Origin: Crystallibacter degradans
Lineage (GTDB): Bacteria > Actinomycetota > Actinomycetes > Actinomycetales > Micrococcaceae
Reading direction: 5' to 3'
Length of the DNA stretch: 64,000 bases
NCBI RefSeq assembly: GCF_012952295.1
Contig: NZ_JABBCH010000001.1
Location: 124,001-188,000 of the forward strand
Part shown: piece by piece, positions 26,388 to 57,044 of the stretch
Layout: the number at the start of each line of letters is the position of its first letter
How positions within the stretch are numbered: position 1 is the stretch's first letter
Program-made: the position numbers and the translations under genes
The notes under the pieces: generated by a model
What the model saw: the letters and a program-made list of their open reading frames with translations, nothing else
The model's database searches: none
Told to the model about the DNA's origin: nothing

Positions 26388-26450
26388 GACGCCTTCCTCC
26401 GCGGGGAGAACAGGGTCGGAAACAATAACAGGTGGTCGGGGCAGCGCCAT

Positions 26451-26992: not shown

Positions 26993-27046
26993 GTGCCAAG
27001 AAATTCGATCGTCCATCCTTCGTTCAGGGAAATTCCGAGAAAATGA
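26993..27046 (+). CDS. 17-codon leader ORF coupled to the LuxR gene
   Basis: GTG at 26993 lies six bases behind a GGGGG ribosome site. The frame encodes MPRNSIVHPSFREIPRK and stops with TGA at 27044-27046. That stop overlaps the LuxR ATG at 27043 as ATGA. The LuxR start itself has only a weak ribosome site, so translation may depend on this leader. The peptide is basic and has no recognised motif. Confidence 0.4.
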   Translation: MPRNSIVHPSFREIPRK

Positions 27047-29730
27047 GCCTGCACGACGATTGGCCGTACTTCGACGATCTCAAGCTCGTCAAAACCCTTG
27101 AACAGGCCATCCTTAACGGTCAAGGGGCAGCTGTTCTTGGAGAATCAGGTGTAGGTAAGACCGCCTTGGTTCGACACGTCCTTGAGCGTTTGAACGGACG
27201 GATCGCTGTATTTTTCCTCAAAGGGAAGGGCGGCGCAGGAGCGGAACCGTTAGCTGCGCTGTATCCCCTGGTGAGCCAGCTTAATTCTGAAGTGCTCGGA
27301 AACCAATTTCACCTGCTCCGGCACCTAGAAGCCTTGATCGATTCCCGGGCAAATGGGTTACTCCCGGTCCTTTACGTGGACCATGGAGAGTTTCTGGACG
27401 ATGTTTCGGCCGCCATATTGGCCCAGTTATGCATGAACAAGAGCATTACGTTAGTTGGAACCTTTGACGACACTTTCCCTATGGGAGAGGAAGCGGCCGT
27501 GCTCTGTCACGATGACAAGCTAGCTATGGTCCGGCTTGAACCGTTGTCCATGTCGTCGGCTGCCGTCATGTTGGCTGTTGGATTGAGGGGTCCGACCTCA
27601 TTTGCCGTGGTGCAGGAGCTATGGAAGTGCAGCAATGGCAACCAGAGATTGATCAAGGCGCTCGCACTTGAGTGGAAAAAGTCCGGTCACCTGAAGGAGA
27701 CGCCGGGCGGGTGGATCCTGTCGGGAACGGTAGCGCCTTTGGACGGCCATGTGTCGGACATATGGAAATCAAGACTGGCTCTTCTGACTGCCGGCCAACG
27801 TTCATTTGTGGAACTGATTGCTCTCTCGGAGGAGCTCCCCTTGGGAACAGCGCTGCAGTTGACGGACCCGGCGGACCTCGACGCAGTTTATGAACAGGGC
27901 CTGCTGCGGTTCAGCTCGGGTCATCCGGTTCGGATCCGAATGAGAAACGACATGGCTGGGCCCATAGTCCGTTCGCAGGTTCCTCCAGGGCGCAGTAGAC
28001 GACTGTTGGAGTCACTCGTGTCGTTAGAGGCCACCAATGGGCATCCTCCCATCGGGCCTATCCCCTTCGTCTCGTGGCAGATGAGCAGCGGCTGCGATGT
28101 GGACGAAGAGACCCTGCTAGCCGCCGCTGAAGAGGCGAACAGGATTCCCGATGGGCGGGCGGCTATAAAGTTCCTATCCGCCGCTAAGTCGTGGAAAAGC
28201 GATCCCTCGTTTGTCAGTGAGATGGTCCGTGGGCTTATAAACGAGGGGCGAATAAGAGAGGCCGACCAATTGCTTTTCGAGCATTACAGAAAAGCAGGAG
28301 AGCCATCGGACATTGAACAATTTGCTCGGTTGAAAATAAACGAGGCGAGGCTATTACGGTTTGGGCGGCAGTTGGCCCCTGAATGCTTCAATAAAAACGA
28401 TCACAATGAAAATACAGTTCTGGTCCTCAAAGATGTTGCTGATCGAGTTCAAGCCCGGGTCGATGAAGCGGACGAAGGGAATAGTGTAACGCTTCATGAT
28501 CTCTGCAGAGAGATAGAGATCATTCGTCTCGAAGCAGACGCCTATGAAGGTGACTACAGTCAATCTATCCGTCGGCTGAAGCAAGCGGTCAAGGCCGAAG
28601 GACCAGACCAACCCAGTAAATGGCACCTTACAATTCGGCTGAACGAGGCCAAAGTCATCACCGGCTCTGCTGACAATGGACTCCATGGCGCGCAGAAACT
28701 TGCCGCACGCTTGAGCCAGATTGAAACGGAACCTGCGGTCCATGAAGCAGTGCATGCCACATTGTTCAATCTGCATTTCATCGCGGGGAACATGGATACC
28801 TGCTGGGAGATAGCTAGAAGTCCCTCCGCCGACGCTGGGCCCTGCGATATCACAGTGGGAGCACTCGACGAGGGCCTTGCATACGCTATGAGCGGCCTGC
28901 ACGAGGACGCATTGCTACGGCTAATACCCGAAATTTACCAGTTGCGGGAGCGGGACCCCCACGGCATTCTGAATCTAGCCATCTCCGCTGCAGCTTACGC
29001 GTACGCGCTTTCCGGCAACGCCGAGGAGGCACACGCGCTGCTTCATGAGACAACGTCGATCGATATGCCTGCCAGTTGGAAGGCCAGACGCATCGCTTTG
29101 TATTTCTCAGCGCTCGCGGCAGCCCTGATCGACTCGAGAGAACCAGTACTCCGCACGCTGCTGCAAGCTGCGGAGGAGGACCGTATCCTGGGAAACACTG
29201 CCTTCGAACTCTTGGCCCTTTCCGCCGCCGCGAGAATAGGCGGTATGGAAGCGGCCGAACGTCTCGCTCCCGCTGCTGCTGGCGCACAGGGTAGGTTCGC
29301 CGCGCTATGCAGCGCGTACGGCCGGGCCCTCAGCCGACGCGATGGCCAAGCACTCCTGGACGTCGCTCGCGGCGCAGCCGACCTTGGGCACCAACAGTTT
29401 GCGATTGACGCAGCCAACCAGGCAGCGGATGCTGCTGCAGCCTCCGGCGACTCGGATACCGCCGAGGCCGCTCGGCTCTTTCAGCCTCCTCAGGACAATT
29501 TGGCTCTAGCCAGGCTTGAAAACCCCGTGCTGTGGGATGGGCTTACACCGCGTCAGCGAGACATTGCTTTGCACGCCGCGGCAGGAGAATCCAACAGGAC
29601 CATAGCGCAGGCTCTTCAGCTGAGCATTCGGACCGTCGAAGGCCACTTGTATCAGATTTACAGTCGACTTAACGTATCGGGGCGCAACGAACTCCAAGAA
29701 GTACTTAGCAGGTCAAGCAGGGCCTCGTAG
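27043..29730 (+). CDS. Large ATPase-LuxR (LAL) transcriptional regulator, divergent from the polysaccharide operon
   Basis: An 895-residue regulator. The Walker A motif GESGVGKT is at 33-40 and a degenerate Walker B PVLYVDHGE at 108-116. About 400 residues of helical TPR-like repeats follow. A LuxR helix-turn-helix lies at 834-888 (LTPRQRDIALHAAAGESNRT, then SIRTVEGHLYQIYSRLNV). LAL/MalT-type proteins bind ATP and a ligand and then activate transcription. Its place head-to-head with the phosphoglycosyltransferase gene suggests control of the polysaccharide operon. It is related in layout to the four LuxR genes at 45.9-57.0 kb. Codon use in the middle (around 28.3-28.6 kb) is more A/T-rich than in those genes, hinting at a different history. 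Confidence 0.9.
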   Translation: MSLHDDWPYFDDLKLVKTLEQAILNGQGAAVLGESGVGKTALVRHVLERLNGRIAVFFLKGKGGAGAEPLAALYPLVSQLNSEVLGNQFHLLRHLEALIDSRANGLLPVLYVDHGEFLDDVSAAILAQLCMNKSITLVGTFDDTFPMGEEAAVLCHDDKLAMVRLEPLSMSSAAVMLAVGLRGPTSFAVVQELWKCSNGNQRLIKALALEWKKSGHLKETPGGWILSGTVAPLDGHVSDIWKSRLALLTAGQRSFVELIALSEELPLGTALQLTDPADLDAVYEQGLLRFSSGHPVRIRMRNDMAGPIVRSQVPPGRSRRLLESLVSLEATNGHPPIGPIPFVSWQMSSGCDVDEETLLAAAEEANRIPDGRAAIKFLSAAKSWKSDPSFVSEMVRGLINEGRIREADQLLFEHYRKAGEPSDIEQFARLKINEARLLRFGRQLAPECFNKNDHNENTVLVLKDVADRVQARVDEADEGNSVTLHDLCREIEIIRLEADAYEGDYSQSIRRLKQAVKAEGPDQPSKWHLTIRLNEAKVITGSADNGLHGAQKLAARLSQIETEPAVHEAVHATLFNLHFIAGNMDTCWEIARSPSADAGPCDITVGALDEGLAYAMSGLHEDALLRLIPEIYQLRERDPHGILNLAISAAAYAYALSGNAEEAHALLHETTSIDMPASWKARRIALYFSALAAALIDSREPVLRTLLQAAEEDRILGNTAFELLALSAAARIGGMEAAERLAPAAAGAQGRFAALCSAYGRALSRRDGQALLDVARGAADLGHQQFAIDAANQAADAAAASGDSDTAEAARLFQPPQDNLALARLENPVLWDGLTPRQRDIALHAAAGESNRTIAQALQLSIRTVEGHLYQIYSRLNVSGRNELQEVLSRSSRAS

Positions 29731-43239: not shown

Positions 43240-45532
43240 GCCGGGTGGACATGCTCGGGGCGATGACGCTGTTGGTCCGTTCCGGTTTGTACCAGCCGAC
43301 CACCTGGCCCCGCATGGCTTGGATCAGGGCGGCATACAACAGATAGGCCCGCAGCGGCTCGTAGATCAGCCGGTAGATCGGCACCATGAGCAGGTGCCAC
43401 AGGCTCTCCTTGACCATCGTCAGCGCGATCACCGAGATGACAAAGTGCGTCACGGCGACGAAGAGCGCAAACCAAGCGATGCTCTGCCAGTTGCCGTTGG
43501 CCAGGCTGATGCCGGCCACCACGACGGTCAGCGGCATGAACACCAGCGGAACCAGGGTGGAGAGCAGCGCGTACGGCAGGGCAACCATGCCCAGGACCCC
43601 GTACTTGGGACGCAGGATCATCGTGTAGTGCTTTCGCAGCGCCTGGATGTTGCCGTAGGTCCAGCGCAGCCGCTGCTTGGCCAGGCCGCTCACGGTCATC
43701 GGTGCCTCGGTCCAGGCCACAGCCTTGTTCTCCTGCACGATCCGGTAGCCCAGGCGCTGGATGCACAGGGTGAGGTCGGCGTCCTCGGCCATGGTGTCGT
43801 GCGAGTAACCGCCGACGACGTCGAGCGCCTCCTTGCGCCATCCGGCGCAGGCTCCGGGCACAATCGAGATGGCGCCAACCAAGCCTTCGGCCATACGCGT
43901 GACGCAGATGCCGGAGATGTACTCCAAGGACTGCCAAGCGGTAAGCAGGTTGCGCCGGTTGCCCACTTTTACGTGGCCGGCCACGGCGCCCACGCGGTCG
44001 CCGCCGTCGGGATCGCAGAAGTGGCGGGCAAGCATCCGGACCGTCTGGGATTCGAACAGGGTATCGCCGTCGAGCGTGACGATGATTTCGCCCCGGGCCA
44101 TGGCGATGCCGAAGTTACTCGCCGCGGATTTGCCGCCGTTGGCCTGCGTCAGCACCCGCAGGCCGGGCCAGTCCCGGGCGAACTCGTTCATCACCGCCAA
44201 GGTGTTATCGGTTGAACCGTCGTTGACCGCGATGACTTCCATGGCCGTGTAATCACTATTCTTCAAGGCCTGCAGGGTCTTCAAGATGACGGGTTCCTCG
44301 TTGAACACCGGCAGAATCACACTGACAAGCGGCAAGGACGCCTCGTCCAGCGCGGACCACTGCTTGCGGGTCTGCCGGCGATGCCCGATGAGCGCCAGGA
44401 CTATGTAGGCGAGGGTCATCAGGGTCAGCGAGCCGATGCCGAACCAGAACAGCCAGCTGATGAGCGTAGGCGGGGCAACCATGTAAAGCGTGTTCACCGC
44501 CGCGGTGGCGTGATCGACGAGGCCCGCTTCGTAGGACTTCACCGGGAGATAGCCCGTTGGCACGATCGGCGCCAGCGTGGTGAAAGTGTAGCCCTTGTCC
44601 TTGGCCTGCTCGATGAGCTTCGCCAAAACTGCCACGGTCCCGGAACGGTCGCCGCCGCCGTCGTGCATGAGGATGATGTGGCCATCGCCGTCGAGTTCCG
44701 GCACCGGGATCTCCTCGCCCGGGTCATAGGACCAGTCCAGCGTGTCCATGTCCATGTCCACGTGCAGGTACCCGAGCTGCTGCGCCTGCAGCACCGCTAG
44801 GGCGTTGTTATCCGGGTCGCCTTTCGGGATGCGGAACAGCCGCGTGGCATACCCGCCCACAGAGCGCATGATCCGGTCCGTGCCGATCAGCTCCTCGCGG
44901 TTGCGGACGTCGCCGTGCTCATAAAAATCGATGTGGCTCATGGTGTGGTTGGCTACCATATGGCCTTCACGAATGATGCGCTGGAAGACGTCGGGATTCT
45001 TGACCACGTTCTGGCCGAGGCTGAAGAACGTGGATGGCACGCCTTCGCGCAAGAGCAGGTCCAGGATCTGCGGGGTGTACTATGCGCTGGGGCCGTCGTC
45101 GAAGGTCAGCATCAGCTGTTTCTCGGCCGGGGTGCCGAAGCGTTCCACCGTGTACGGGGCGTGACCGATTTCCTCCGCTTCAGCAGGGGCGGCTTCCCGG
45201 AAGACCTTGTCGCTGAACGGGTCCGTGAGCATGACCTTGCCACCGATCCGCTCCACCGTGTCCACCCGGACGAAGGCGAAGCCGGTTTCCTCGCCGATCA
45301 GTGGGATGTTCTCTTCGTCCCAACTGGCGAGAAGCTCACGCGGATAGCTGGCGGACTGGTTTTCCGGCGGGGTCCAGGTCGGGGCCAGAGCGCTGGGCGT
45401 CACGAAGGCCACAGTTCCGGCCATGGCGACGAGCAGGGCAGTCAGGACGAGCATGACGCGACGCCAGCGTTTACCGCTTGGATCGAAAAAAACCGGAACG
45501 GCAGGGTGCGGAATCTTCGCCGACGTGCTCAT
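43229..45532 (-). pseudogene. Polysaccharide deacetylase-GT2 synthase, interrupted by one in-frame TAG
   Basis: Read through one stop, the frame encodes about 766 residues. A membrane segment at 27-46 precedes a NodB-type polysaccharide deacetylase at about 135-330 (LTFDDGPSA at 142-150, ANHTMSH with metal His at 196 and 200, LMHDGGGDRSGT). A further membrane segment leads to a processive GT2 domain (VNDGSTDNT 436-444, DGD 488-490, EDAD 583-586, QRLRW 620-624) and C-terminal membrane helices. Such fusions are expected to make and partly deacetylate a GlcNAc-type or similar polymer. Codon 151 is TAG (45080-45082), directly after FDDGPSA and before YTPQILDLL. Everything else is intact. A fresh nonsense mutation, readthrough, or a sequencing error could explain it. 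Restart at GTG 45052 would lose the first deacetylase motif but keep the GT2. Confidence 0.85.
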
Positions 45533-45904
45533 GCCAGCGTCCCGGTCGAACAGTTTTCAGGGGCAGCTAAGGCATTCTTCTCCACGTTGATCAATCCCCC
45601 AAGGATTAGGTACGCAGTGGTTTATGGATGGTGGCTAGGTGTTTATGGATGGTGACTAGCGATGCTCCGGCAAGGGAGCGGCAATGAATGCAAGATCGGG
45701 AGACGGGGCCGGCAGTGACGGGGCAAAGTCTCGGTCTCAGAAGACTTCGTTCACCGCCGGTCCCGTCAAGGCCGGGACCGCGGCAGTTGCGGGGGCTTTC
45801 CCGCCGCGGCCCGGATCAGGAGCGGGTTGGCCGTGGCGTCGCCTGCCCCATTCCCTCAGCCTAGGAAGCGGCGGAGCCCCCGGCACGAGTGCTTCCTACG
45901 CGTT
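45533..45904. other. Intergenic region upstream of the deacetylase/GT2 gene
   Basis: 372 bases between two minus-strand genes. The half near the deacetylase gene holds the 19-bp tandem repeat at 45620-45659. The rest is GC-rich with no convincing gene; a plus-strand ORF here overlaps the LuxR gene and was rejected. Confidence 0.5.
45620..45659. promoter_or_regulatory. Two-copy 19-bp direct repeat, candidate operator
   Basis: GTTTATGGATGGTGGCTAG (45620-45638) and GTTTATGGATGGTGACTAG (45641-45659) differ at one base. The period is 21 bases, two helical turns. They lie 88-127 bases upstream of the deacetylase/GT2 start. A tandem activator site is a reasonable inference. Confidence 0.6.
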
Positions 45905-48900
45905 TTACCCGCCTCCTACTTGCAACACGGGCACGGAATCACGTGGAGCGAGCGCCCTAGGCTCCACCTGTTGCGTGCCACTGAGTACGACGGCGGCAAG
46001 CTCAGCTCGAGTGCGCACATGCAGCTTGTCGTAGATGCGGTAAATATGGCCGTCCACGGTCCGCACGGAAACGCCCAGCCGCGCCGCGATGTCCCGGCTG
46101 CGCATGCCCTGCGCCACGAGCGTGACGACGTCCCGTTCGCGGTAGGTCAGCTCCCGGGTGACAAACGGCTCGCCCAGCTGCGAGGTCACCACGTCCGGCA
46201 GTTGCAGGCGCAGCTGATGGACCAGCCGCAAGGCCTTCCGCTGTCTGGCCCGGTGGCCGTCGCGGTGCCCGTCGTGTTGGCCCTCGCGTGCCAGGTACCG
46301 GGCGCCGTAGGCGGCTGCTTCCGCGGCCAGCAGCGGGTATCCGGCATCGGCCGCGTCCCGGGCGAGGACGAGGATGCGGTCCGCATTCTTATCCAGCAGT
46401 GCCTGGGCGAAGGCATGCAGCAACCCGTTTTCCCTGCCGGCCGGTGCTGCGGTAATGTCCCGCAGCCGCGCCAGCCCGTCCAGTTCACCGAGCCGCAGCA
46501 ACAGGATGTGGACTTCGGTTTCCTCCGTCACCCGGCCGAGTTGGGCCAGACGTGCCGCCAGCCCGGTCAGCTCCTGGACCGCAGCGGTCATGCCCTGCGT
46601 GGCAGCGCCGGCGGCGGCAATCCGCGCCTGGGCCGTCAGGGGCATGGCCTCGCGGATGGTGCCCCGGTGGTGAGCCCGGTGCTCACTGAAGGCGCTGGTG
46701 CACGATGCAACGGTCCCGCGCTCGTTGAGCATGGCGGCTGCATCCGCGGCCAGGCCCAGCGAGTAACCGAGCAGCTGGTGCGGATCCTGCATCCGCAGCG
46801 AGTCCACTGCCAGCAGCAGCCGGTCCAGGCTGGCCCGGACGCGCCCTTGTTTGAGTTCCACCCAGCCGTGCAGGAACTCAGTGGTTCCACCGAAGACCAC
46901 CAGGGATTCCGGCCTGTCGGTATCGTAGCGTTCCAGATGTCCGGTGGCGTCGGTGAGGTGGCTGGCCTGGACCAGGCAGCGGATGAGGCGGAGGGCCAGG
47001 CCTTCCTGCAAAACGTTCCCGGTGTCCGGTTCGTCCTCCAGGAGGCGGAGCACCGCGCTGGCGATGTCGGCGCTGGTCTGCCGGTCGCCGGTGGCCAGAG
47101 CCGCCTCGGCCAGGAGCGTCTTAGCCACCAGGACTACGTGTTCGGTGGCCGGGTCCTGGCGACCCTCGTACTGCTGAGCGGCGTCTGCCTCGGCAGCCAA
47201 CCGCCACAGGCCCGGGATGCTTTCGGCAAACCGGCCTTCCAGTTGCATCGCATGATGGTGCAGCAGCCTGTCGAACCGGCGGTCCTCCGGCTTCAAGATC
47301 CGGCGCGTCAACGCGATGTCCCAGTTCCGGAGCAGCTGGCTCAACAGCTCCGCCCCGGCACCGGTCCGCACCACGACTTCCTGGCCCAGCAGGACCGCGT
47401 CGCGGAGCACGGCAGGGTCGGTGGAATTGGCCAGAACCTTGGACAACCGGGCCAGCGCGCGGCCGGCATACCCCTGTCGCAGGTAGATCCGGATGATCTC
47501 TACTTCCGCCGCGGGTGCCAGCTGCGGCGACTCGATCACCGTCGCGGCCCGCAGCGCCAGCGCGAGGTCGTGACCCCGGTTGGCCTGCTGCGCGGTGGCC
47601 AGCAGTGTCTTCTCGCTCAGCGGAAGCTGAGCGTCGAGGGCCCACCTGGCCGGCCCCACGCTGTCGGGAGTTAGCTCCGGTTCGTCGACGAGGATCTGGG
47701 TGAAGCGGCCGTACAGTTCTCGACGGGTGCCGGCGGGCGCGATACTGCGCACCGCCGCTGCGGGGTAGGCCGGCCCGAGCCGGACCAACGGACCGAAGTG
47801 GGCCAACGCTTCCGCCGCGGCTGCCCGGTCCTGGCGGTGGGCCTGGTGCTGATTCTGGGTGTAGTCCTGCTGATCCGAGTCCGGGTCCCTATTCTGGTCC
47901 GTCTCTTCGAAATCGAACTCGAGCAGGCGGCCGGCCTGGAGCCGCTCGAAGTGCCCTCCCCGTGCGAGCCGAGACAGCAGGCGCAAGCGCAGCGGACCGG
48001 CGAGGGCCACGGCGTAGACCGCTTCCTGCTCCGCGGTTGCCAACCGCTGCAGGTCCTCCCGGAGCATGTCCTGCAGGAGCTCGCTGGTTTCCGGGAACCG
48101 GCCGGTGGGCAGCCAATTGCCGTTGTGTTCGACCAGCCGGTTCAGCCGACGGCTTTCCTCGAGCAAGGCCAGCAGGTTCCGTGGATGACCGACGGAGTTC
48201 CGGGAGAGCAGTCGTGTGGCGGCCGGGAGCACCGGACCTCCGAGGACGTGCCGGACGACGTCGTGGACTTCCGGCACAGTCAGCGGGGCCAGTTCGCAAC
48301 GTTCCAGCTGGCCGTCCTGCTGCAAGGCCGCCAGCTCCGGATCAACGGAATTCCCCGGCCGGGCCGCGAGCAGCGCTTTTACTGCTCCGGTTCCGATCAG
48401 CTGGGCCAGTATGACCGCGCTGACGGGATCGAGTTCGTGGGCATCGTCCACCAGCAGCACGGGCGGTTCGGCGCGGCCAGAGAGGAACCGCAGGGTTGCC
48501 CGCAGGACCTCCACCGGCGGCGTGTCCGGTGCCGGTGGAACCTCATCGCCGAGCAGCGGACCCAGCGCCGCGAACGGTACGTCGAGCAGCGATGCCGCGC
48601 TGCCGGCAAGCCGGATGAAACGGAAATCCGGCCTCAACACCTGGGCGATGTGGCCGAGCAGAGCGGTCTTCCCGATCCCCGGCGCCCCTATTATCAGTGC
48701 GCCGCGGACAGTCTTGCTGTTCAGGATTGCCGTGACTGCGGCCGTGGCGCGCCCGCGTCCTGCCAAGGCTGGAAGTTCTGCCGAGGCTGGAAGGCGAGGC
48801 ACCGCCGTCGTACTTATTGGTGGTGATTCCCCAAAGACTGTTTCCCCGGTCAGCGCCTCCCCTGGTGCCGTTTCCCCGTTGTGTCCTGCCTCTGCCAAGG

Positions 48901-48934
48901 CCCCCGCGTGTGCGGAGATGATCGAGTGACTCAT
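45905..48934 (-). CDS. Large ATPase-LuxR (LAL) regulator D
   Basis: A 1009-residue regulator, last of four in a row. The Walker A motif GAPGIGKT is at 83-90 and Walker B PVLLVDDAHE at 158-167. Helical TPR-like repeats fill the middle. The LuxR helix-turn-helix lies at about 929-985 (LTYRERDVVTLVAQGMRSRD, SVRTVDGHIYRIYDKLHV). A Gln/Asp/His-rich insert (about 345-380, with DPDSDQQDYTQNQHQAH) interrupts the middle region, and a 25-residue tail follows the DNA-binding domain. The gene starts 39 bases after regulator C and lies 372 bases upstream of the deacetylase/GT2 gene on the same strand. Control of that gene is the simplest inference. Confidence 0.9.
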   Translation of the reverse strand: MSHSIISAHAGALAEAGHNGETAPGEALTGETVFGESPPISTTAVPRLPASAELPALAGRGRATAAVTAILNSKTVRGALIIGAPGIGKTALLGHIAQVLRPDFRFIRLAGSAASLLDVPFAALGPLLGDEVPPAPDTPPVEVLRATLRFLSGRAEPPVLLVDDAHELDPVSAVILAQLIGTGAVKALLAARPGNSVDPELAALQQDGQLERCELAPLTVPEVHDVVRHVLGGPVLPAATRLLSRNSVGHPRNLLALLEESRRLNRLVEHNGNWLPTGRFPETSELLQDMLREDLQRLATAEQEAVYAVALAGPLRLRLLSRLARGGHFERLQAGRLLEFDFEETDQNRDPDSDQQDYTQNQHQAHRQDRAAAAEALAHFGPLVRLGPAYPAAAVRSIAPAGTRRELYGRFTQILVDEPELTPDSVGPARWALDAQLPLSEKTLLATAQQANRGHDLALALRAATVIESPQLAPAAEVEIIRIYLRQGYAGRALARLSKVLANSTDPAVLRDAVLLGQEVVVRTGAGAELLSQLLRNWDIALTRRILKPEDRRFDRLLHHHAMQLEGRFAESIPGLWRLAAEADAAQQYEGRQDPATEHVVLVAKTLLAEAALATGDRQTSADIASAVLRLLEDEPDTGNVLQEGLALRLIRCLVQASHLTDATGHLERYDTDRPESLVVFGGTTEFLHGWVELKQGRVRASLDRLLLAVDSLRMQDPHQLLGYSLGLAADAAAMLNERGTVASCTSAFSEHRAHHRGTIREAMPLTAQARIAAAGAATQGMTAAVQELTGLAARLAQLGRVTEETEVHILLLRLGELDGLARLRDITAAPAGRENGLLHAFAQALLDKNADRILVLARDAADAGYPLLAAEAAAYGARYLAREGQHDGHRDGHRARQRKALRLVHQLRLQLPDVVTSQLGEPFVTRELTYRERDVVTLVAQGMRSRDIAARLGVSVRTVDGHIYRIYDKLHVRTRAELAAVVLSGTQQVEPRALAPRDSVPVLQVGGG

Positions 48935-48972
48935 GATTAACCGTGTTTCTGCTGTGTTACCGCCCAGCTGAC

Positions 48973-51174
48973 TTAGGCAAACGCGCCGGCCGGGACAGCC
49001 GGCGGGCCAACCTGCAATTTTCGGTAAATTTGCTGCAGGTGGCCTTCCACGGTGCGGATGGACACGTGCAGCCGATACGCGATGACCGCGTTGCTGGCGC
49101 CTGTTGCTGCCAGCGAAGCGATCTCGCGCTCACGCCCACTAAGGGCATCGTGAGTGCCGCCGCTGCCGGGCGCGAAGTCCGGCAGCCTGCGTTCGGCAAG
49201 AATGAAAGTGTGCGCGGAACGCATCAGCGAGGTGTCGTGCTGCCGCGCCGCTATGGTCAATCCGGCCCGAGCGGCCTCCTGGGCCAAGACCCGGTTTCCC
49301 TGGCACACGGCCTGGTCCGCCGCGGCGAACAGTCGTTCTGCGTCCCCGCGCGCGATGCCTTCACCGAAGAGCCCGCACAGCCGGGCAAAGTCCCCCTGCA
49401 TCTGGCCCGCGATCGCGGCGAGCCGAGCGGCGGATCCGGTGGCGCCGAGGCGGACCGCACCGCTGACGAACAGCAGTTCGTCCGTGAGCGCGCCGCGGGT
49501 GGTGGCCTGGGCGGCGCCCTGAAGCAGCCGGGCGATGGCCTGGTCACGATGGCCTACCGTGGCCGAGGCCATGGCGCCGAGGTAGCGGATCCAGACCTGC
49601 TGCTGCCAGCTCAGCCCCCTAGGGCCGGCACGAAGTACGACGGCGGGAAGCTGGCTGAGCTGCGCGCGTGCACCTTGCCTATCGCCGGCGAGGGCGAACG
49701 CGTAGGCGGCCGCCGCGGAGGCAAGCGCGTTCAGCCCGTTCTCGGAGGGGCCGGTCTGGAGTTGCGCCAGCACGGGGCGCAGTTTGGCCAGCGCTTCGTC
49801 CGCCAGGCCTGCATCCGTGCTGGCTACCGCCTCAGCCGTTTCGATCCACAGCCAGATCCGGGCACGGCCGACCGGCAGGCCGGAGCTGAGGTCCGCCCGG
49901 GACGGGGTGGCGGCGGCGAACAACCGGCCGAAGCCGTCCCACATCCGCTGGTGCGCCAGCAGCCGGACCCCGTAGGCAATCCCGCTTGTGCGTTGAGCAA
50001 GTTCATCCGTGGGATCGGCAAGTCCAAGGGCGAACCCGCCCGGTTGGCGGGGCCCGCCCTCTTGGTCCGTGCCGAGCAGTTCGGCGGCGAGCAGTTCGGC
50101 GGCGAGTTCCAGGGCATCGGTTTCGCGACCGGTGGCGGCCATGGCTTCACAGAGGGCTGCTCCTACCCGCAGCCGCAGGGCGGGGTTCCTCGACGGCAGG
50201 AGATCCTCCACCGCTGCGACGACGTCAAGATAGCGGCCGTCGAGCACCGCATGCTCTGCAGTGGTGAGCACCGATAGACACGGATTCGTGCCAATGGGGG
50301 CGGCTGGCAGGCTTGCCAGCTCCGGCTCTGTTTGCTCCAGGTCTGCCTTCTCGAGGCCTGCTTGCTCCATGCCTTCCTGGTCCGCCTCGGTGAGGATCCA
50401 CCCGGCGTCGCAATGTACCAGCCGGCCGGATTCGACCCATTCGCGGGTGAGCACGCGCAGCAGCCGCGGATTGCCGCCGCTGGCTTCATGCAGCGCCTGC
50501 ACGGCCAAGAGGGTCAGTCCCGGACCAAGTGCCGCCCCGAGCCATTCACCGGTTTCTTCCACGCCGAAGTCCCTCAGGTCCGTCCGCGCAAGCCGGCCGT
50601 CCTTCCATAGGCGGAGCAGCCCGGCAGGCGTGCGACGCGCATCGTCCGCACACACCAGAAGGCGGGCGTCGCCGTCGTCGGCCATTGCGGTAATGACCGC
50701 GGCAGCGAGCGGATCGATCGCGTGCGCGTTGTCCACAAACAGCAGCACGGGCTTGCCGCCCGATCGCCGGTGCAGGAAACTGGCCACACTGCACACCACG
50801 GCCAGCGGGTGTCCCAATTCCGCTTCGGGGATCTCGGCGAGCAGCACGTTCAGTGCGCCGTAGGGAAGACGTTCAACGGCGGGGCTGCCGCGGAGGTAGT
50901 CAATGTGGACCTCGCCGTGCAGCCGGTGGAGTACGTCGCGGGCCAGGGACGTCTTGCCGGTACCGGGGCCGCCGATCAACAGTGCGCCACAGCCGGACCG
51001 GGACGCGGCGAGGGTGGCGGCCAGGTATGTGGCGAGGGATTCGGCCAGCTTGCTGCGGCTGCCCACCGGGGGTGGAACCGGCGGCATGGAAGGCGGCAGG
51101 TGAGCGTGTCGGTGCGAAGTCTTCTCATCCGGTGCGAGCGGTAGGTCAGACCACGCCGATGTAGGGCTGAACAT
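48973..51174 (-). CDS. ATPase-LuxR (LAL) regulator C, with shortened DNA-binding domain
   Basis: A 733-residue regulator, shorter than its neighbours. Walker A GGPGTGKT lies at 68-75, and Walker B is degenerate (PVLLFVDNAH, 142-151). The LuxR helix-turn-helix starts at 678 (LSGREREIASLAATGASNAV, SIRTVEGHLQQIYRKLQV). After KLQV the usual last helix (of the type SSRTELAELL) is replaced by GPPAVPAGAFA and the stop. The dimerising helix may thus be lost. No ribosome site precedes the ATG, so the start is uncertain. The gene is separated from regulator B by 231 bases that hold two TACTCAGG motifs 42 bases apart, so it may have its own promoter. Confidence 0.85.
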   Translation of the reverse strand: MFSPTSAWSDLPLAPDEKTSHRHAHLPPSMPPVPPPVGSRSKLAESLATYLAATLAASRSGCGALLIGGPGTGKTSLARDVLHRLHGEVHIDYLRGSPAVERLPYGALNVLLAEIPEAELGHPLAVVCSVASFLHRRSGGKPVLLFVDNAHAIDPLAAAVITAMADDGDARLLVCADDARRTPAGLLRLWKDGRLARTDLRDFGVEETGEWLGAALGPGLTLLAVQALHEASGGNPRLLRVLTREWVESGRLVHCDAGWILTEADQEGMEQAGLEKADLEQTEPELASLPAAPIGTNPCLSVLTTAEHAVLDGRYLDVVAAVEDLLPSRNPALRLRVGAALCEAMAATGRETDALELAAELLAAELLGTDQEGGPRQPGGFALGLADPTDELAQRTSGIAYGVRLLAHQRMWDGFGRLFAAATPSRADLSSGLPVGRARIWLWIETAEAVASTDAGLADEALAKLRPVLAQLQTGPSENGLNALASAAAAYAFALAGDRQGARAQLSQLPAVVLRAGPRGLSWQQQVWIRYLGAMASATVGHRDQAIARLLQGAAQATTRGALTDELLFVSGAVRLGATGSAARLAAIAGQMQGDFARLCGLFGEGIARGDAERLFAAADQAVCQGNRVLAQEAARAGLTIAARQHDTSLMRSAHTFILAERRLPDFAPGSGGTHDALSGREREIASLAATGASNAVIAYRLHVSIRTVEGHLQQIYRKLQVGPPAVPAGAFA

Positions 51175-51405
51175 GATGAGACCAATCGGCTGAAGCTACG
51201 TGCTATCGAGCCTAAAGTCGCGCTGCTGCAGTGTCTTGCGTAGCCGATACGGGTTCTTCGTGCCGAGGCGGCCGGACTGTACTCAGGAACCTTGGAGAAA
51301 GCTTGCCGACGGCGTGCGGACTACTCAGGTAGGTACGTGCAGGTACCGGCTCCGTTGCGCCGGGGGTCGCTGGCAGCCGGAAAGGCCGCACGGCTACTCG
51401 GTTTG
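51175..51405. promoter_or_regulatory. Gap between LuxR genes with paired TACTCAGG motifs
   Basis: TACTCAGGAA (51280-51289) and TACTCAGGTA (51322-51331) lie 42 bases apart. A weaker TACTCGG copy is at 51395. GGTAC-CTGCAC-GTACC-like symmetry follows the second copy. It is a candidate promoter/operator for regulator C. Confidence 0.4.
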
Positions 51406-54192
51406 TCAGTCCAGGTGCTCCGCGGTCAGGTCCTCGCGGTTGCTGATCTGCAGTTTGGTGAACATCCGGTAGATGTGGCCCTCCACGGTGCGGACCGACA
51501 GGCTCAGCCGCCGGGCGATGTCCGAGTTGGCCAACCCGTCCACCACCAGTCGTCCGATTTCCCGCTCGCGCCTGGTCAGCCTGGCGTGCACCGTAACTGC
51601 CCCGGCAGCAGGCAGGCCGAACGCGGTCAGTCCCGCCCCGGACGACCCGCGGGCCGCGAGTCCGCCCGCTGGCAATCCGTCGGCTAACAGTCCGCCTGCC
51701 GTGCCTGTCTGCAGCCCGCCGGCGGTATCCGGCACCAGGGACAGTTTCTGCAGCTGCCGTTTGACCTGCTGCAGGAACTCCTGCCGCCCAGCGGCTCCAC
51801 CGGTATGTTCGGGCAGCAGATCCCGCTGCTGAAGGCTCTGCAGGGTCAGCCGCAGGGCGTGCCCGGCCGAGGGATCGCGGCTGAGCCTGAGCACGGCGTC
51901 CATGTCTTCGTCGCGCAGGGCCCGGGCGAACGCGGTCAGTTGCGCGGCAGGCGTTCCCTCGGTCAGGCCAGCGACTTTTACCAGTTCGTCCAGCTCCGTC
52001 AGGTCGCCCAGGCGCAGGCTCAGCTGCCGTAGGTCCAGCTCGGTGCTGGCCAGGCCGCGCTTCTTCGCGTCGCCGCTGAGCGTACGCAGCTTCCCGAGTC
52101 CGCCGTCGCCGTTTTGAATGAGGTAGCCGGCGGCGGCCACGTACCCCTGGCTCAGGAGCTGCAGCTGCGGCACGGATTTATACGGCACATCGGCGTATGC
52201 GGCCAGGTATTCTCCGGCGAGCGCGGTCAGGCCGGCCATGGCGGAGGCGTAGGCCCCGGAGGCGAGGGCGATGGGCAGCAGGTGTTCGAGGTCGGACTGG
52301 CGCAGTCCCTCGATGGCGGCGTTAAGCATCTGCAGCCCGCTGGCCGTCCGTCCCCGCAGGATCTCCCGCATGGCATACGCGTAGCTGACGGCGCCGCCGA
52401 AGTAGAACAGCCCCCGGTGTCCGGTGCCGGCGTACCGCTCCAGTTCAACCCGCACCTCCTCCCATTCGGCGAGCCGCACGCAGGCCATGATGTGCGTGGT
52501 CAGGACGTATTCGTAGTACCCCAGCAGCTCGTCTTCGTTCCGCCGCAGCAGCGCCAACGCCTCGCGGGTCAGCGAAGCTCCGCTGACGAGCCGGCCGGTG
52601 GCGGCATACACGTCCCCCAGCAGGGTCTTGATGACCAGCTCGGTCTCGGGGAAGCCGTCGGACTCTTCCTGCAACGTACGCAGTTCGGCTTCGGCATCGG
52701 CCAGGCGGCCTTCGGAGAGCTTGGCGTGCACGCGCATCAGCCGGTGGCCCTGCTCCGCAATAACGACGGCGCGGCTCGCCTGCAGCTTCGGATTCGCGCC
52801 TTGGATCCGCTCCACCGCCCGAGCCCACTGATCGGCGAGAACATACAGTCCGGCCGGTTCGCCGTGCAGGTGCAGATGCAGCTGGGCCGCCAGTACCGCC
52901 GCCCGTTTGGCCGTGCCCAGATCGTCGGTTCTGGTCAGGACACCGGCCAGCCTTTCCCCGGCGCGCTCATAGTCGCCTGAGTGGAAATGGGCGCGAGCCA
53001 TGGCCACCTGCGCCGCGGGGCGGTACGCCGGATCCCTGACCGCTCCGGCTGCGCGGAGGGCAAAGCGTGAGTGGAACAGACCATTGGCTACCTGGGCGGC
53101 CTGCAGCAGCTGCTGGTCCGGCACCGGCACGCCGCATTCGAGCGACCAGTCCACGGAGCGCAGCAAGGTCTCCACCCGCAGCGGCCGCGTACCAAGTTGG
53201 CCCAGGTAGGCGGCCAGGCTGCGCCGGATCCGCAGGCTGCGGCCGGCGGGAACCATGGCCCGCAGCACCTGTGCGTAGATCGGATGGGCCACGCGGACCA
53301 GCTGTTCGGCGTCGTCGCCAATGGTAATCAAACGGGCTTCGACGAGCGCGTCGACCTGGTCCCCCGCGCCGGTCTGCAGCAGGACCTGCAGCGGCACCGG
53401 GTCCGCCAGGGCAACCGTCTCCAACAGTTCGCGTTCGGCCTCGGTACAGCGGCCGAAGTGGCCTTTGATCAGATCCGTCAGGCGCAGATCCGGCGGCAGC
53501 GGCTCCCCGCCCAGGAGCCAGACACCGTTGCGTTCCACCAGCGTGCCGTCCCGGCGGACCTGGGCCAGCAGCGCCAGCAGGAACATCGGATTGCCGCCGG
53601 CGGACTGGACCAGGGCTTCGCTGATGCTGGGCAGGATTTCGCCCTGCAGCACCTGGCGGCAGAGCTCGTGGGCCTGCGCCCCGTCCAGCGGCTGCAGGGT
53701 GTGCCGCAGGATCAGCCCGTCCGTGGCCAGCGATTGGATTTCCGGCGGCGGCGCCTGAACGGACCGGCTCATCGCCAGCAGCCTGACCGCTCCCGAGGCC
53801 ACCAGCTGCGCCGCCAGCAGGGAACTGGACTCGTCGAGTTCGTGGACGTCGTCGATCACCATCAGCACGGGCGCCTTGCCCGGCGACAGCCGGTGGATGT
53901 ACGCGAGCACGGACCGCATGGCCGGCAGCACGGAGTCCTTCCGCTCCACCTGCAGGGCGGAAAGGTACGGGGCCAGCGCGCCGAACGGAATGCGTGAGAG
54001 GCTGGGGCTGGCGTAGACCCGCAGCGGGGTCATCTCACTGCCCAGCTCGGCGATGACGGCGCGGGCCAGCGCGCTTTTGCCCAGTCCCTGGTCCGCTACC
54101 AGCAGGGCACCTCCGTTGGTCCGGATGGCGTGCAGCACGATGCTGAGGTCCGCTTCCCGCCCGACCAAACCGACGCTCCCGAAACCCTCCAT
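51406..54192 (-). CDS. Large ATPase-LuxR (LAL) regulator B
   Basis: A 928-residue regulator. The ATG at 54192 overlaps the stop of regulator A (TGATG), so the two are coupled; the longer open frame upstream lies inside regulator A. Walker A is ADQGLGKS (33-40, a permitted variant) and Walker B VLMVIDDVHELD (109-120). The LuxR helix-turn-helix is at 872-928 (LTRREREIGRLVVDGLANSD, SVRTVEGHIYRMFTKLQI). A flexible linker with repeated GGL (about 823-863, TAGGLLADGLPAGGLAARG) joins the repeats to the DNA-binding domain. It has a short N-terminus with the ATPase almost at residue 1. Confidence 0.9.
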   Translation of the reverse strand: MEGFGSVGLVGREADLSIVLHAIRTNGGALLVADQGLGKSALARAVIAELGSEMTPLRVYASPSLSRIPFGALAPYLSALQVERKDSVLPAMRSVLAYIHRLSPGKAPVLMVIDDVHELDESSSLLAAQLVASGAVRLLAMSRSVQAPPPEIQSLATDGLILRHTLQPLDGAQAHELCRQVLQGEILPSISEALVQSAGGNPMFLLALLAQVRRDGTLVERNGVWLLGGEPLPPDLRLTDLIKGHFGRCTEAERELLETVALADPVPLQVLLQTGAGDQVDALVEARLITIGDDAEQLVRVAHPIYAQVLRAMVPAGRSLRIRRSLAAYLGQLGTRPLRVETLLRSVDWSLECGVPVPDQQLLQAAQVANGLFHSRFALRAAGAVRDPAYRPAAQVAMARAHFHSGDYERAGERLAGVLTRTDDLGTAKRAAVLAAQLHLHLHGEPAGLYVLADQWARAVERIQGANPKLQASRAVVIAEQGHRLMRVHAKLSEGRLADAEAELRTLQEESDGFPETELVIKTLLGDVYAATGRLVSGASLTREALALLRRNEDELLGYYEYVLTTHIMACVRLAEWEEVRVELERYAGTGHRGLFYFGGAVSYAYAMREILRGRTASGLQMLNAAIEGLRQSDLEHLLPIALASGAYASAMAGLTALAGEYLAAYADVPYKSVPQLQLLSQGYVAAAGYLIQNGDGGLGKLRTLSGDAKKRGLASTELDLRQLSLRLGDLTELDELVKVAGLTEGTPAAQLTAFARALRDEDMDAVLRLSRDPSAGHALRLTLQSLQQRDLLPEHTGGAAGRQEFLQQVKRQLQKLSLVPDTAGGLQTGTAGGLLADGLPAGGLAARGSSGAGLTAFGLPAAGAVTVHARLTRREREIGRLVVDGLANSDIARRLSLSVRTVEGHIYRMFTKLQISNREDLTAEHLD

Positions 54193-57044
54193 CAGGCGAG
54201 AAGTTCGGCAAGCTCGGTGCGGCTGGAGACGTGCAGCTTGCTGTAGATCTTGCCCAAATGCCAGTCCACCGTGCGCGGCGAGAGGTTCAGCTGCTCGCCG
54301 AGCTCCACGCTGCTGTGCCCCCGTGCGGCGGCAACGGTCAGTTCCTGTTCGAAGCTGCTCAACGTTTCGAAGCTGCGGTGCAGATCGTGGTGCCGGCGCA
54401 GCCTGCGAAAACTCGTGTTGGCCAGTTCCCGCGCCTGCCGGGCCGTCAGCGGGTCCGGTGCCGCGGACTGGGCGGCGGAGGCAGCCTCGTAAGCGAACAA
54501 TTCGTTGCCATCCCCGCGGGCGAGCTGCGCGGCCTGAAGCCAAGCGGCGCCGTCGTTGTTGAGCATTCCCGCGGCGAAAAGCCTGCCGGTCCTCGCCAGC
54601 TGTCCCGCAGTCTCCGGAACTCGATCCAGGATGACGACGGCGGCTTCGCGGTCCCCCAGCCTCGCGGCCGCGGTCAGGAAGAGCGCGCTGTGGGCGACCA
54701 AGCCCCGGCCTGCGGCCTCGTGTGCGAGCCGCTTCAGGTCCGTGAGTGCAGCGTCCCGGCCGCCGAGCTGGGCCTGTGCGGTAAGGCGGAAATAGGCCGC
54801 AACTACGCTGATGTTCCAGGGCGGTTGTTCACCGACGGCACCCAGCTCACCGAGGTAGTAGCGGGCGCGGGCGGTGTCGCCCTGCAAGGCGCTGCAGTAG
54901 GCGGCAGCTGCCAACGCTGCGGGCTTTGCGCCGGCGGGATCGCGCCGCCTGAGTTTGCCCAGCGCGGGCAGCAGATGGTCCAGCGCCTCGTCGGGCCGGC
55001 CGCAGGACGCGTGCAGCAGCCCGGCCGCCAGATCGCCGCCGGTGCCGGCGCCAGCGCCAGCGCCACGGGCCAAGCTGGCGATACCTGTGCCGCGCCGGGG
55101 CGACAGCAGGTCCGCGGCGCGCTGCCAGAGTCCGCAGTTGAAGTAGATTTCGAAAACCCGTACCAGCACGGTGTCCCGCAGGGTCGGCGAGAGATCAGGG
55201 TTCGCGGTACCGGTTTCCAGCCAAGCGACGACGGCAAGCGCGTCCTCGCTCCGCCCGGTGAGGGACCAGCCTTCGGCCAGCAGGCATCCGGCGTAGAGTC
55301 GCATGCCCAGCGGCAAGGTTTCGTCGCCGTAAATATTTTCGAGCTCGCGGGGCAGCTGTGCGTGCCGGCCCTCGAAGGTGGCGTACTCGGCCTCGATCAG
55401 CACTGCTTCCCAGCGGAGCGGCGGGCCGCCGTCGTTGTTGGTGGTTCCGCCTGCGGTGTCCTCGCCGCTGTGGCCGATGGCGGCTTTCAGCTGCTCGATC
55501 ACGGCGCGAGCTTCGGCGGCGCGGCCCGGAAGGCGGCGGAGCACGCGGTGCCGCTCGACGCACAGCAGCGTCCAAAGCCGCAGGTTTCCGCGTGCCGCCT
55601 CGAGAACCGATTCCAATGCCTCGGCCGCCGCGTTGAGTTCGCCCAGGCTGCGCAGAGCATTGGCTTCCTGAAGCACCATTTCGGGCCGTTTCCGGTGGTC
55701 CGGCACGCTGCGGACAAAGCGGAGAGCACCGGCATGGTCGTAGAGCCGGTTGGCCAGCTGGGCGGCCCGCAGCGCGGCCTCGGGCGGGAGTTCGACACCG
55801 CAGTCGATGCTCCAGGAGGCAAAGCCCATCAGCGTGCCGCCCGGAATCGCGTTGAAGTCTATGGTGGCAGCCACGGCCTCCCGCAGTTCCCGGCTGCGTG
55901 CCGGCGGCACGGATTCGCGCACTGTATCGGCGCTGAGCTGGTTTTGCAAGCGGACGATAGGCGGCGAAGTGGCAAGCACGCGCATCACGCCGTGCTCTTC
56001 CAGGACGTCCAGGTCCTCCGGTGCGGCCAGCCGCTGCAGCGCCGCGAGCGGAAGTTCCACCGCGAAGGCCAGCAGCTCGATGATGCGCCGCTGCTCGGGG
56101 CCGTAGCGGTTCAGCCGGGCACGGATGACCTCCGCAATCTCGCCGGAGCGGACCAGCGGCGCCACCAGGTCCCAGCTGCCGTCCTGCTCAACGAGGGTGC
56201 CGGCGTGGCGCTGCTCAGACGCGAGCATGCGCAGGAATCCCGGGCTGCCGGAGGTGTGGCTGTGCAGGTTTGCGACGGCGGCGCGGGCTACCCGCCCGCC
56301 GAGCAGTGCCGAGAGGTACCCGCCGCTCTCCTCCAGCGTGAAGGGCGCAAGATCGATCCGCCGGACGTGGCCGTCGGCCCAGAGCCGGATGAACTCCTCG
56401 GCCGCACCGGTCAGTTCGCGCGCGAGGATCAGCACCTTCGCTTGGCCGGAGACCGCCAGTTGGGTCACGGCCATGACCGACATCGGGTCCAGATCATGGG
56501 CATTCTCAACCAGCAGGACCAGGATCCTGCCACCGGCCTGTTCGGTCAGGAGCCGGGACAAGCCCTGCATGGCCAGCACCGGGTGGTCCAGCACGTGTTC
56601 GGGCAGTTCACTGAGCAGATAGCCCAGGGCCGCGTAGGGCACGTTGGCGGAGATGGCGCTGCCGCGTACCGGGACAATATGGTGATTGCCGTCGAACGTC
56701 TTGAGCGCTTCCAGCGCCAGCGCGGTCTTGCCCACGCCGGGCTCCCCCACGACCATCGCGCCCACCTGCAGGTTGTCCTGCAGCGCGGAGCGGACTTCCT
56801 CGATCTCCCGCTCCCGGCCCACAAAAACATTGGCCGGCGCGGGGAGTCCGACAGGTGAACCCAAGTGGCCGCCGCGCATCAGGCCGATGGGCGACACCGT
56901 TCCTACGGCGCGCCCTGCTGGATCCGTAACCTGGCCGGTCTGGTCCAACGCCCGCGGAACCCTGGCACCCGGATGCACTGCAGCCGCCCCCAAGACACGG
57001 CCGTGCACAGATCTTTTAACTGGTTCACGCCTCACACCTGCCAC
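54192..57044 (-). CDS. Large ATPase-LuxR (LAL) regulator A, first of the tandem set
   Basis: A 950-residue regulator. An N-terminal extension of about 70 residues precedes VFVGREREIEEV. Walker A GEPGVGKT is at 100-107; Walker B is degenerate (ILVLLVENAHDL near 174-185, with Glu for Asp). TPR-like helices follow, including a Gly/Ala linker (GAGAGAGTGGDL). The LuxR helix-turn-helix is at 896-950 (VAAARGHSSVELGEQLNLSP, RTVDWHLGKIYSKLHV). Trp in place of the usual Gly in TVDWHL is a difference from regulators B-D. GTG 57044 has GGGGA close upstream; the ATG at residue 56 is the alternative. It opens the set and is probably transcribed with regulator B. Confidence 0.88.
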   Translation of the reverse strand: MAGVRREPVKRSVHGRVLGAAAVHPGARVPRALDQTGQVTDPAGRAVGTVSPIGLMRGGHLGSPVGLPAPANVFVGREREIEEVRSALQDNLQVGAMVVGEPGVGKTALALEALKTFDGNHHIVPVRGSAISANVPYAALGYLLSELPEHVLDHPVLAMQGLSRLLTEQAGGRILVLLVENAHDLDPMSVMAVTQLAVSGQAKVLILARELTGAAEEFIRLWADGHVRRIDLAPFTLEESGGYLSALLGGRVARAAVANLHSHTSGSPGFLRMLASEQRHAGTLVEQDGSWDLVAPLVRSGEIAEVIRARLNRYGPEQRRIIELLAFAVELPLAALQRLAAPEDLDVLEEHGVMRVLATSPPIVRLQNQLSADTVRESVPPARSRELREAVAATIDFNAIPGGTLMGFASWSIDCGVELPPEAALRAAQLANRLYDHAGALRFVRSVPDHRKRPEMVLQEANALRSLGELNAAAEALESVLEAARGNLRLWTLLCVERHRVLRRLPGRAAEARAVIEQLKAAIGHSGEDTAGGTTNNDGGPPLRWEAVLIEAEYATFEGRHAQLPRELENIYGDETLPLGMRLYAGCLLAEGWSLTGRSEDALAVVAWLETGTANPDLSPTLRDTVLVRVFEIYFNCGLWQRAADLLSPRRGTGIASLARGAGAGAGTGGDLAAGLLHASCGRPDEALDHLLPALGKLRRRDPAGAKPAALAAAAYCSALQGDTARARYYLGELGAVGEQPPWNISVVAAYFRLTAQAQLGGRDAALTDLKRLAHEAAGRGLVAHSALFLTAAARLGDREAAVVILDRVPETAGQLARTGRLFAAGMLNNDGAAWLQAAQLARGDGNELFAYEAASAAQSAAPDPLTARQARELANTSFRRLRRHHDLHRSFETLSSFEQELTVAAARGHSSVELGEQLNLSPRTVDWHLGKIYSKLHVSSRTELAELLA

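Follow-up and report, generated by a model that had tools for sequence, protein, structure and literature searches.

A regulator array of Crystallibacter degradans read as two tandem copies of a conserved pair of STAND-type LuxR regulators, with a candidate palindromic operator

Why should four very large ATPase-LuxR regulators stand in a row on one strand, beside a gene for polysaccharide synthesis? The question is raised by a 64,000-nucleotide stretch of Crystallibacter degradans DNA (hereafter the window), which covers positions 124001-188000 of contig NZ_JABBCH010000001.1 in a 4.96 Mb genome (G000) whose nearest relatives are Arthrobacter. A preliminary description of this DNA had seen the four genes, A to D, as a series of four regulators exerting layered or combinatorial control over polysaccharides, and had added that regulators of this kind, the large ATP-binding regulators of the LuxR family (LAL), are usually single. 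Neither view held when related genomes were compared. Judged by its sequences, the array contains one conserved module in two tandem copies, each made up of two genes for LAL regulators of the STAND type (signal transduction ATPases with numerous domains). Tree and gene order give two pairs, A-B and C-D, and speak against four independent, layered regulators; C is eroded, one related stretch (G007) has A-B alone, and in this clade pairs of a class-1 and a class-2 gene prevail over single genes.

All four genes lie on the minus strand with no further gene detected between neighbours, and re-reading of the open reading frames (ORFs) confirmed the positions, lengths and spacing given earlier. Regulator A (57044-54192, 950 aa, GTG start) is the class-1 gene that opens pair 1, and its true start is probably ~55 codons inside the annotated one. 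Its stop has one base in common with the start of B (TGATG), the class-2 second gene (54192-51406, 928 aa). After a gap of 231 bp comes C (51174-48973, 733 aa), the shortened class-1 first gene of pair 2, followed 38 bp further on by D (48934-45905, 1009 aa), its class-2 partner. Regulator E (27043-29730, plus strand) is a lone class-1 gene. The ATPase and C-terminal LuxR domains described earlier are present in all five. Specifically, AAA_16 and GerE exceed the Pfam cut-offs in A, B, C and D (in B the AAA_16 score is barely above, 32.7 vs 32.6), AAA_22 and GerE do so in E, and the GerE match in C ends at position 47 of 57. The regulators had been held not to be fresh copies, which agrees with our data; because identity to A is only 25-31% among the others, we regard them as old paralogues. 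A-E score above 850 bits on a profile built from them, against 40-72 bits for four further LuxR proteins of LAL size in this genome (in L054-L057), and a fifth (C92:74334) is not among the profile hits at E ≤ 1e-10 in the called genes.

The two classes emerge as two clades when 47 proteins of 14 genomes are arranged in a tree: one with A, C, E and the first genes of the pairs, the other with B, D and the second genes. Our home-made gene caller, which relies on contrast in third-position GC content (GC3), missed some genes, and the class-2 B genes of L042 and L043 were added to the tree by hand. One long-branch first gene (L047) stood at the base of the second clade and fell into class 1 in a larger tree. 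A FastTree of 319 rows with AbsR2-type outgroups placed 155 of 158 class-1 rows (support 0.87) and all 155 class-2 rows (0.89) in pure clades; the three class-1 rows that fall outside come from other families, each a lone weak hit.

Profiles served to assign the class in 74 named loci and 50 further genome stretches. Seven loci that repeat others (L125-L127, L130, L131, L135 and L138) were left out of the counts, those sharing a genome or contig (L098/L099, L100/L101, L133/L196 and L194/L198) or coming from near-identical genomes (L162/L163) were kept, and hits below 300 bits were excluded from the adjacency, large-tree, gap k-mer and neighbourhood counts. Across 111 loci, a class-1 gene lies directly before, on the same strand, 145 of the 157 class-2 genes with room upstream, and a class-2 gene lies directly after 147 of 162 class-1 genes. 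Because most loci were found by a class-2 query, it is the adjacency of class 1, not the presence of class 2, that counts as evidence. The commonest layout is '1-2' (48 loci), followed by '1-2-1-2' (26), which is that of the window with E apart, and '1-2-1-1-2' (7). The class-1 stop is less than 115 nt from the start of the class-2 profile match in 139 of 147 pairs, a spacing with which translational coupling fits. Partners have also diverged together. Class-1 and class-2 distances correlate across 141 pairs (r = 0.91), and in 39 loci with two pairs the real partners gave r = 0.943, against 0.271 ± 0.049 (maximum 0.526, 1000 trials) when partners were swapped within the locus. On these comparisons the unit of duplication is the class-1/class-2 pair; co-divergence supports a physical partnership but does not prove it, because linkage alone could yield it.

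Are the two members of a pair equivalent? The second acidic residue of Walker B matters for hydrolysis in STAND proteins. This position holds D in 148 of 161 class-2 rows, whereas among 163 class-1 rows it holds N in 108, D in 24, T in 16 and E in 6 (here and below, hits from 100 bits were accepted if they covered more than 700 profile positions). The window follows this division, with EN in A, DN in C and DH in E against DD in B and D. The lysine of Walker A is present in 159 of 163 class-1 and 144 of 161 class-2 rows, and the HTH (helix-turn-helix) reads mostly HLYQ in class 1 (Q in 103 of 163) and HLYR in class 2 (R in 148 of 161). The unequal Walker B sites suggest a division of labour between the classes. 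The arrangement of LAL/MalT-type proteins, with an N-terminal P-loop ATPase domain and a C-terminal LuxR (GerE) HTH, is found in all five regulators. AlphaFold2 models of A (pLDDT 89.9, pTM 0.88) and B (pLDDT 88.0, pTM 0.83) show the STAND fold with a helical sensor arm, a region that is partly missing from C, and a profile of the class-2 alignment matches MalT (1hz4) in the helical region. Foldseek listed for A, as first matches, a STAND-TPR protein (6mfv), MalT in a negatively regulated complex (8bob) and ADP-bound Apaf-1 (1z6t), and for B CED-4, the active apoptosome and NLR resistosomes among the matches; such matches (6mfv, 8bob, 1z6t, 4m9s) are at the level of domains, with TM scores by query length of 0.13-0.30. 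The contrast between A and B here may be a modelling preference and is given no weight. Fixed-order neighbouring classes, partner-specific co-divergence and unequal ATPase sites would together mark the paired STAND type that we propose, and all three appear in these sequences.

Concerning what the pairs stand next to, 53 of the 103 loci with both classes (window excluded) have a polysaccharide gene on the same strand no more than 6 kb downstream, two have one on the opposite strand and none has one upstream. When only the 71 loci with 3 kb on each side were considered, counting up to 3 kb, the figures were 20, 1 and 0. A purely local role is not general, because roughly every second locus lacks a polysaccharide gene in its vicinity. 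For a check independent of any reference set, Pfam was run on the two nearest genes per side in 68 loci (loci with less than 3 kb on a side, four from already counted genomes and three of 134 downstream proteins were dropped). The 131 downstream proteins include aminotransferase V (29), NifU-like (26), Bac_transf (12), Polysacc_synt_2 (7), Glycos_transf_1 (5) and UDP-glucose dehydrogenase (4). The 135 upstream ones include peptidyl-tRNA hydrolase (35), ribosomal L25 (35), acyl-CoA dehydrogenase (16) and ribose-phosphate pyrophosphokinase (8); polysaccharide families are absent from the 25 of 62 upstream families listed, and each has at most one member there. Many Arthrobacter loci have one chromosomal slot in common (glmU-prs-L25-Pth-pairs-...-aminotransferase-mfd) and are therefore not independent. 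In genus g21, which belongs to another family, each of the 11 genomes examined carries a single Bac_transf gene, which follows the pair on the same strand at a distance of 1 to ~10 kb. Bac_transf is within 12 kb of the pair in nine of 25 other genomes, all of the window's family (in eight it follows the pair on its strand, and in G064 it is on the opposite strand); in G000 it lies beside the lone E, three of the 25 are without it and twelve have it elsewhere.

A possible operator came from the gaps after and between pairs, where a k-mer count pointed to [CT]GAGTA. Patterns of the form ACGAGTA-Nx-TACTCGT were counted in 149 gaps (63.6 kb), 11 matches out of 14 being the minimum. Inverted half-sites at spacer 5, that is the 19-base palindrome WCGRGTA-N5-TACTCGT, gave 94 sites in 91 of the 149 gaps against a shuffled mean of 1.8; spacers 0-4 and 6-9 gave 0-6 sites, and spacer 10 gave 16. 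Direct repeats were also raised at spacers 0, 6, 8 and 12 (24-47 sites) and everted ones reached 16, with which clusters of half-sites fit. Counted on 12 core positions, the density of the box is 1.19/kb after arrays and 2.06/kb between pairs, against 0.043/kb elsewhere in the loci. Of 111 loci, 63 carry it no more than 450 bp beyond the array, distributed by next gene as 13 of 14 for UDP-glucose dehydrogenase, 17 of 29 for Bac_transf, 21 of 31 for aminotransferase and 12 of 37 for others, and six of the 111 carry it upstream of pair 1. The box is nearly symmetric, although the array sites have T at both positions 1 and 19 in 56 of 88 cases and A at both in none. We consider that this 19-base box is probably the landing site of the paired regulators. 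A near-perfect copy was also seen in G015 (L048, position 8861 on the array strand) between two pairs that are separated by an aminotransferase gene.

The 64-kb window holds exactly two such boxes, each in the gap beside one of its polysaccharide loci. The candidate at 45885-45903 (12 of 14 matches) stands just after the stop of D and ~350 bp before the start of the gene for a glycosyltransferase of family 2 (GT2) with a deacetylase domain, and a box right after D is present in G004 and G002 as well. The candidate at 26669-26687 (11 of 14 matches to ACGAGTA-N5-TACTCGT) stands between the Bac_transf gene and E, with further TACTC half-sites beside it up to ~26755. From 85 sites per 4.96 Mb, ~0.017 boxes would be expected in the two gaps (964 bp), which had been chosen by the preliminary description. 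Additionally, three half-sites (TACTCAGG, TACTCAGG and TACTCGGT on the plus strand) lie at 51280-51402 in the B-C gap.

Does the box also occur away from the arrays? Near-perfect sites, which deviate from WCGRGTA-N5-TACTCGT at no more than one position, occupy 71 places in 20 pair-bearing genomes, 12 at arrays and 59 distant. The reversed pattern proved a poor background, being commoner than the real one in G000 (222 vs 85 per strand), so placement in pair-bearing and pair-lacking genomes was compared instead. ORFs below 120 aa were dropped, and pair-lacking genomes were those without a match or with weak matches only; 20 of 21 sites within the family were examined, and 16 sites in five pair-lacking genomes of other families were left out. 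The distant sites are intergenic in 36 of 59 cases (19 of 23 in a first batch selected for perfect or clustered sites, 17 of 36 in the second), compared with 3 of 20 in pair-lacking family genomes (Fisher p = 5.5e-4), and they are both intergenic and within 450 bp of a start in 27 of 59 compared with 0 of 20. Eight of these 27 promoter-type sites lie beside genes or operons of glycan enzymes: polysaccharide deacetylase loci in three cases (C44:5239 of this genome included, and one with GT2), GT2 in two more, and LytR-CpsA-Psr, heparinase-like and PIG-L-type genes. Five adjoin surface or wall proteins (SBBP or Big-domain in three, LysM, TadE-like), which brings the glycan and surface share to a raw count of 13 of 27. 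One extra site, scored as coding by the gene caller, precedes a glycosyltransferase of family 4 with DUF3492. As a separate observation, near-perfect boxes precede small Hpt-domain proteins at L230 (9069-9566) and L268 (3129-3599), hinting at a phosphorelay link.

Taken together, we find it fairly probable that a conserved class-1/class-2 pair acts jointly on the box, placed before polysaccharide and other surface genes. Our model, whose co-transcription, signal, hetero-assembly, pair-box binding and sign of regulation are inferred from sequence, would run as follows. The adjacent, near-overlapping genes of A+B and of C+D would probably each yield one mRNA; a signal would act on the helical sensor arms, nucleotide exchange would open the class-1 and class-2 proteins, and these would assemble, most simply as a mixed complex whose LuxR heads would bind WCGRGTA-N5-TACTCGT palindromes before polysaccharide and surface genes. 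Class 1 would be a nucleotide-holding sensor and class 2 the switching ATPase, and E would be a lone class 1, probably brought in with a horizontally acquired polysaccharide cluster. Combinatorial control within one pair is possible. A wider proposal, which we hold tentatively and would not yet count as probable, is that such a mixed sensor/switch complex, a counterpart of paired NLRs, runs through one box a surface-matrix regulon of the Arthrobacter group; that this regulon would comprise polysaccharide synthesis and deacetylation, wall-polymer attachment and surface proteins is put forward with the same reserve. The earlier idea of polysaccharide control survives in its link to polysaccharides (downstream genes, g21 in 11 of 11 genomes, the box) and not in its four layers, and in related genomes the genes are neither scattered nor always far from polysaccharide genes.

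Several observations weigh against this joint action of the pair. The loci are related and their counts not independent, linkage alone could match the partner trees, and both classes have the same nearest other-locus pair in only 92 of 141 cases. The second Walker B position retains D or E in 30 of 163 class-1 rows, and the Walker A lysine is missing in 15 of 161 class-2 rows. The polysaccharide reference genes were partly drawn from genes first seen downstream, and 6 kb were covered upstream in 54 of the 103 loci and downstream in 72; among the 42 loci with at least 6 kb on each side the share is low, at 13 downstream on the same strand, one on the opposite strand and none upstream, and the commonest nearest downstream genes are aminotransferase V and NifU-like (29 and 26 of 131). 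Concerning the box, its enrichment (94 sites against 1.8) was measured in the same gaps that had yielded the motif, and a co-inherited regulator could bind it. It is carried without an adjacent polysaccharide gene by the 21 of 31 loci followed by an aminotransferase, it occurs in none of the 11 post-array gaps of g21 (a motif search in these 11 loci gave nothing clear), and in the window it is absent from the gap upstream of A and, as a full palindrome, from the B-C gap, where only half-sites were found. Near-perfect sites are not more numerous in pair-bearing genomes than the reversed-pattern control, and the distant-site signal is for this reason one of placement. Finally, 14 of the 27 promoter-type sites adjoin other or unassigned genes, among them two Hpt proteins, MarR/ANTAR, thioredoxin, KsgA-like, MFS and amidase.

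These points leave room for other explanations. The classes might be neighbours by descent only, each forming a homo-oligomer with its own signal on partly shared boxes. Linkage by itself would yield conserved order and matching trees, the near symmetry of the box would suit homo-oligomers, and lone class-1 genes exist (E, L046 at 11626 and the middle gene of the seven '1-2-1-1-2' arrays). We nevertheless think this unlikely, given the class-1 gene upstream of 145 of 157 class-2 genes, the partner-specific co-divergence between the two pairs of a locus, the systematic Walker B difference and the consistent orientation of the box (T..T in 56 of 88, A..A in none). The box could alternatively belong to another regulator of envelope genes, for instance a response regulator of the NarL type, with the pairs merely sharing its polysaccharide region. 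GerE is matched 27 times in the genome, the half-site TACTCGT resembles the NarL heptamer, and boxes away from the arrays stand before Hpt, MarR and kinase genes as well; yet the box is densest between and directly after pairs, even where no polysaccharide gene follows, and placement before a gene falls to 0 of 20 in pair-lacking genomes, which makes such a regulator improbable.

It could also be argued that the pairs regulate something else and that the slot from prs/L25/Pth to aminotransferase-Mfd is an insertion hotspot, so that the association with polysaccharide genes is positional. The many Arthrobacter-group loci with a pair in the slot and no polysaccharide gene would agree with this, but the upstream neighbours differ in g21, where Bac_transf nevertheless follows in 11 of 11, and distant boxes precede glycan genes too; we judge the hotspot explanation distinctly improbable. 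Very improbable indeed is a decaying, mostly non-functional array in the window genome. Its symptoms would be the ~200 residues missing from C, the G007 stretch without C-D, the short C-matching ORFs (68 residues) of G003 and G008 and the stop codon in the next gene, against which stands the constraint on A, B and D (ratio of non-synonymous to synonymous substitution rates, dN/dS, 0.11-0.27), with C at 0.50 or below.

Such erosion as there is concerns pair 2. C had been described as a giant regulator, and although its domains are in place it is not a full-length copy: ~200 residues after the ATPase domain, present in A and in the C of G009, are gone. The same loss, and the same alteration of the C-terminus, are found in G004 and G002. 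G001 has fragmented C and D genes, in G003 and G008 C survives only as an ORF of 174-182 aa with a 68-residue match, and A-B alone is present in the G007 stretch analysed. The dN/dS values are 0.41-0.50 for C, 0.25-0.27 for D, 0.16-0.27 for A and 0.11-0.20 for B. On these sequences, pair 1 (A-B) is the core and pair 2 (C-D) accessory, with its class-1 member eroding in the genus.

How do the paired regulators, acting together as we propose, compare with known systems? They resemble MalT and the LAL proteins in their N-terminal STAND ATPase, helical sensor arm and C-terminal LuxR HTH. MalT is single and homo-oligomeric, whereas the array regulators form two classes as near-constant neighbours, with class 1 mostly lacking the second Walker B acid. 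Plant paired NLRs (sensor and helper), a hallmark of plant immunity, are STAND proteins from linked genes with unequal roles. The B model resembles CED-4 and apoptosome subunits at the level of domains; unlike plant NLR pairs, CED-4 and Apaf-1, the array proteins would have DNA binding and not cell death as their output, their genes are head-to-tail and their assembly is inferred. To our knowledge, most known STAND proteins are single switches that homo-oligomerise, and a bacterial pair that is conserved and has a predicted operator and regulon could be a simple, genetically tractable system for asking why STAND proteins pair. Paired regulators would also offer a handle on capsule and matrix control in Arthrobacter-type soil bacteria.

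BldM and WhiI are atypical response regulators without a STAND ATPase, and their genes are not known to be tandem-paired. In Streptomyces these two LuxR/NarL-type HTH proteins act together, as a heterodimer, on a half-changed palindrome (PMC4125116), and a single site taken by two unlike LuxR-type heads therefore has a precedent; their sites, TCACcCgnncGgGTGA and TGnnCCGnnCGGGTGA, are unlike the array box (PMC4125116). The nearest named family by profile is SCO6993/AbsR2 of Streptomyces (NCBIfam NF050132), with 81.4-112.6 bits for A-E, far below the equivalog cut-off of 850 bits. Unlike the paired array regulators it is a single gene of 606-646 aa, divergent from the beta-glucuronidase gene SCO6992 (PMC9628970), a neighbour that rules out AbsR2 as a known pair. 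The AirR proteins of Arthrobacter sp. UMCV2, likened to the array regulators by description only, include large ATPase-LuxR forms, and some airR genes respond to a volatile amine (PMC9659744); they are treated as LuxR solos in a main text that does not contain 'polysaccharide' and has 'tandem' only in a reference title (PMC9659744). A literature search, mostly outside subscription journals, found no description of the pairing, the polysaccharide link or the box, and no regulator of the paired-STAND kind for an Arthrobacter-type capsule or matrix.

Two polysaccharide loci remain to be described in the window. Downstream of D lies the polysaccharide deacetylase and GT2 synthase gene (45532-43229, minus strand). 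The polysaccharide synthase gene noted earlier is thus where it was placed, but it is neither intact nor a conserved neighbour: an in-frame TAG at 45080-45082, within the deacetylase domain, splits it, and the conserved genes after D in G002 and G004 are UDP-glucose dehydrogenase, epimerase and deacetylase. The TAG could possibly mark a pseudogene, a sequencing error or a real stop, and a homologue in L147 (13965-16367) is an intact ORF of 800 aa. The other locus is a low-GC polysaccharide cluster whose Bac_transf priming sugar transferase gene (24870-26450, minus strand), the probable first gene of a polysaccharide operon, is divergent from E. GC content is 0.57-0.58 over the cluster and E (~9600-29730) vs 0.64-0.69 in the flanks, and this stretch is a probable acquired island by its composition. 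In the 47-protein tree E was joined by no class-1 protein from the nine further genomes of the genus, a class-1 fragment in G005 being left unplaced, which suggests that E and its cluster may have arrived together by horizontal acquisition. Regulator B of Arthrobacter sp. VKM Ac-2550 has 94% identity to that of the window.

Some minor features were also recorded. Two direct copies of a 19-mer (GTTTATGGATGGTGRCTAG), 21 bp apart, lie at 45620-45659 upstream of the glycosyltransferase gene; considered as a shared operator, this repeat was rejected, having one occurrence in the genome. A partly self-complementary element at ~45725-45750, around GTCTCAGAAG (AAGTCTTCTGAGACCGAGACTT in the window), has similar counterparts in 30 of 111 post-array gaps and could be a terminator or a second site. 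Finally, a third class-2-like gene follows the pair in L095, L096, L157, L159, L160, L166 and L167; its profile match ends before the HTH, at ~814-817 of 890, and it possibly encodes a regulator without a DNA-binding head or with a diverged one.

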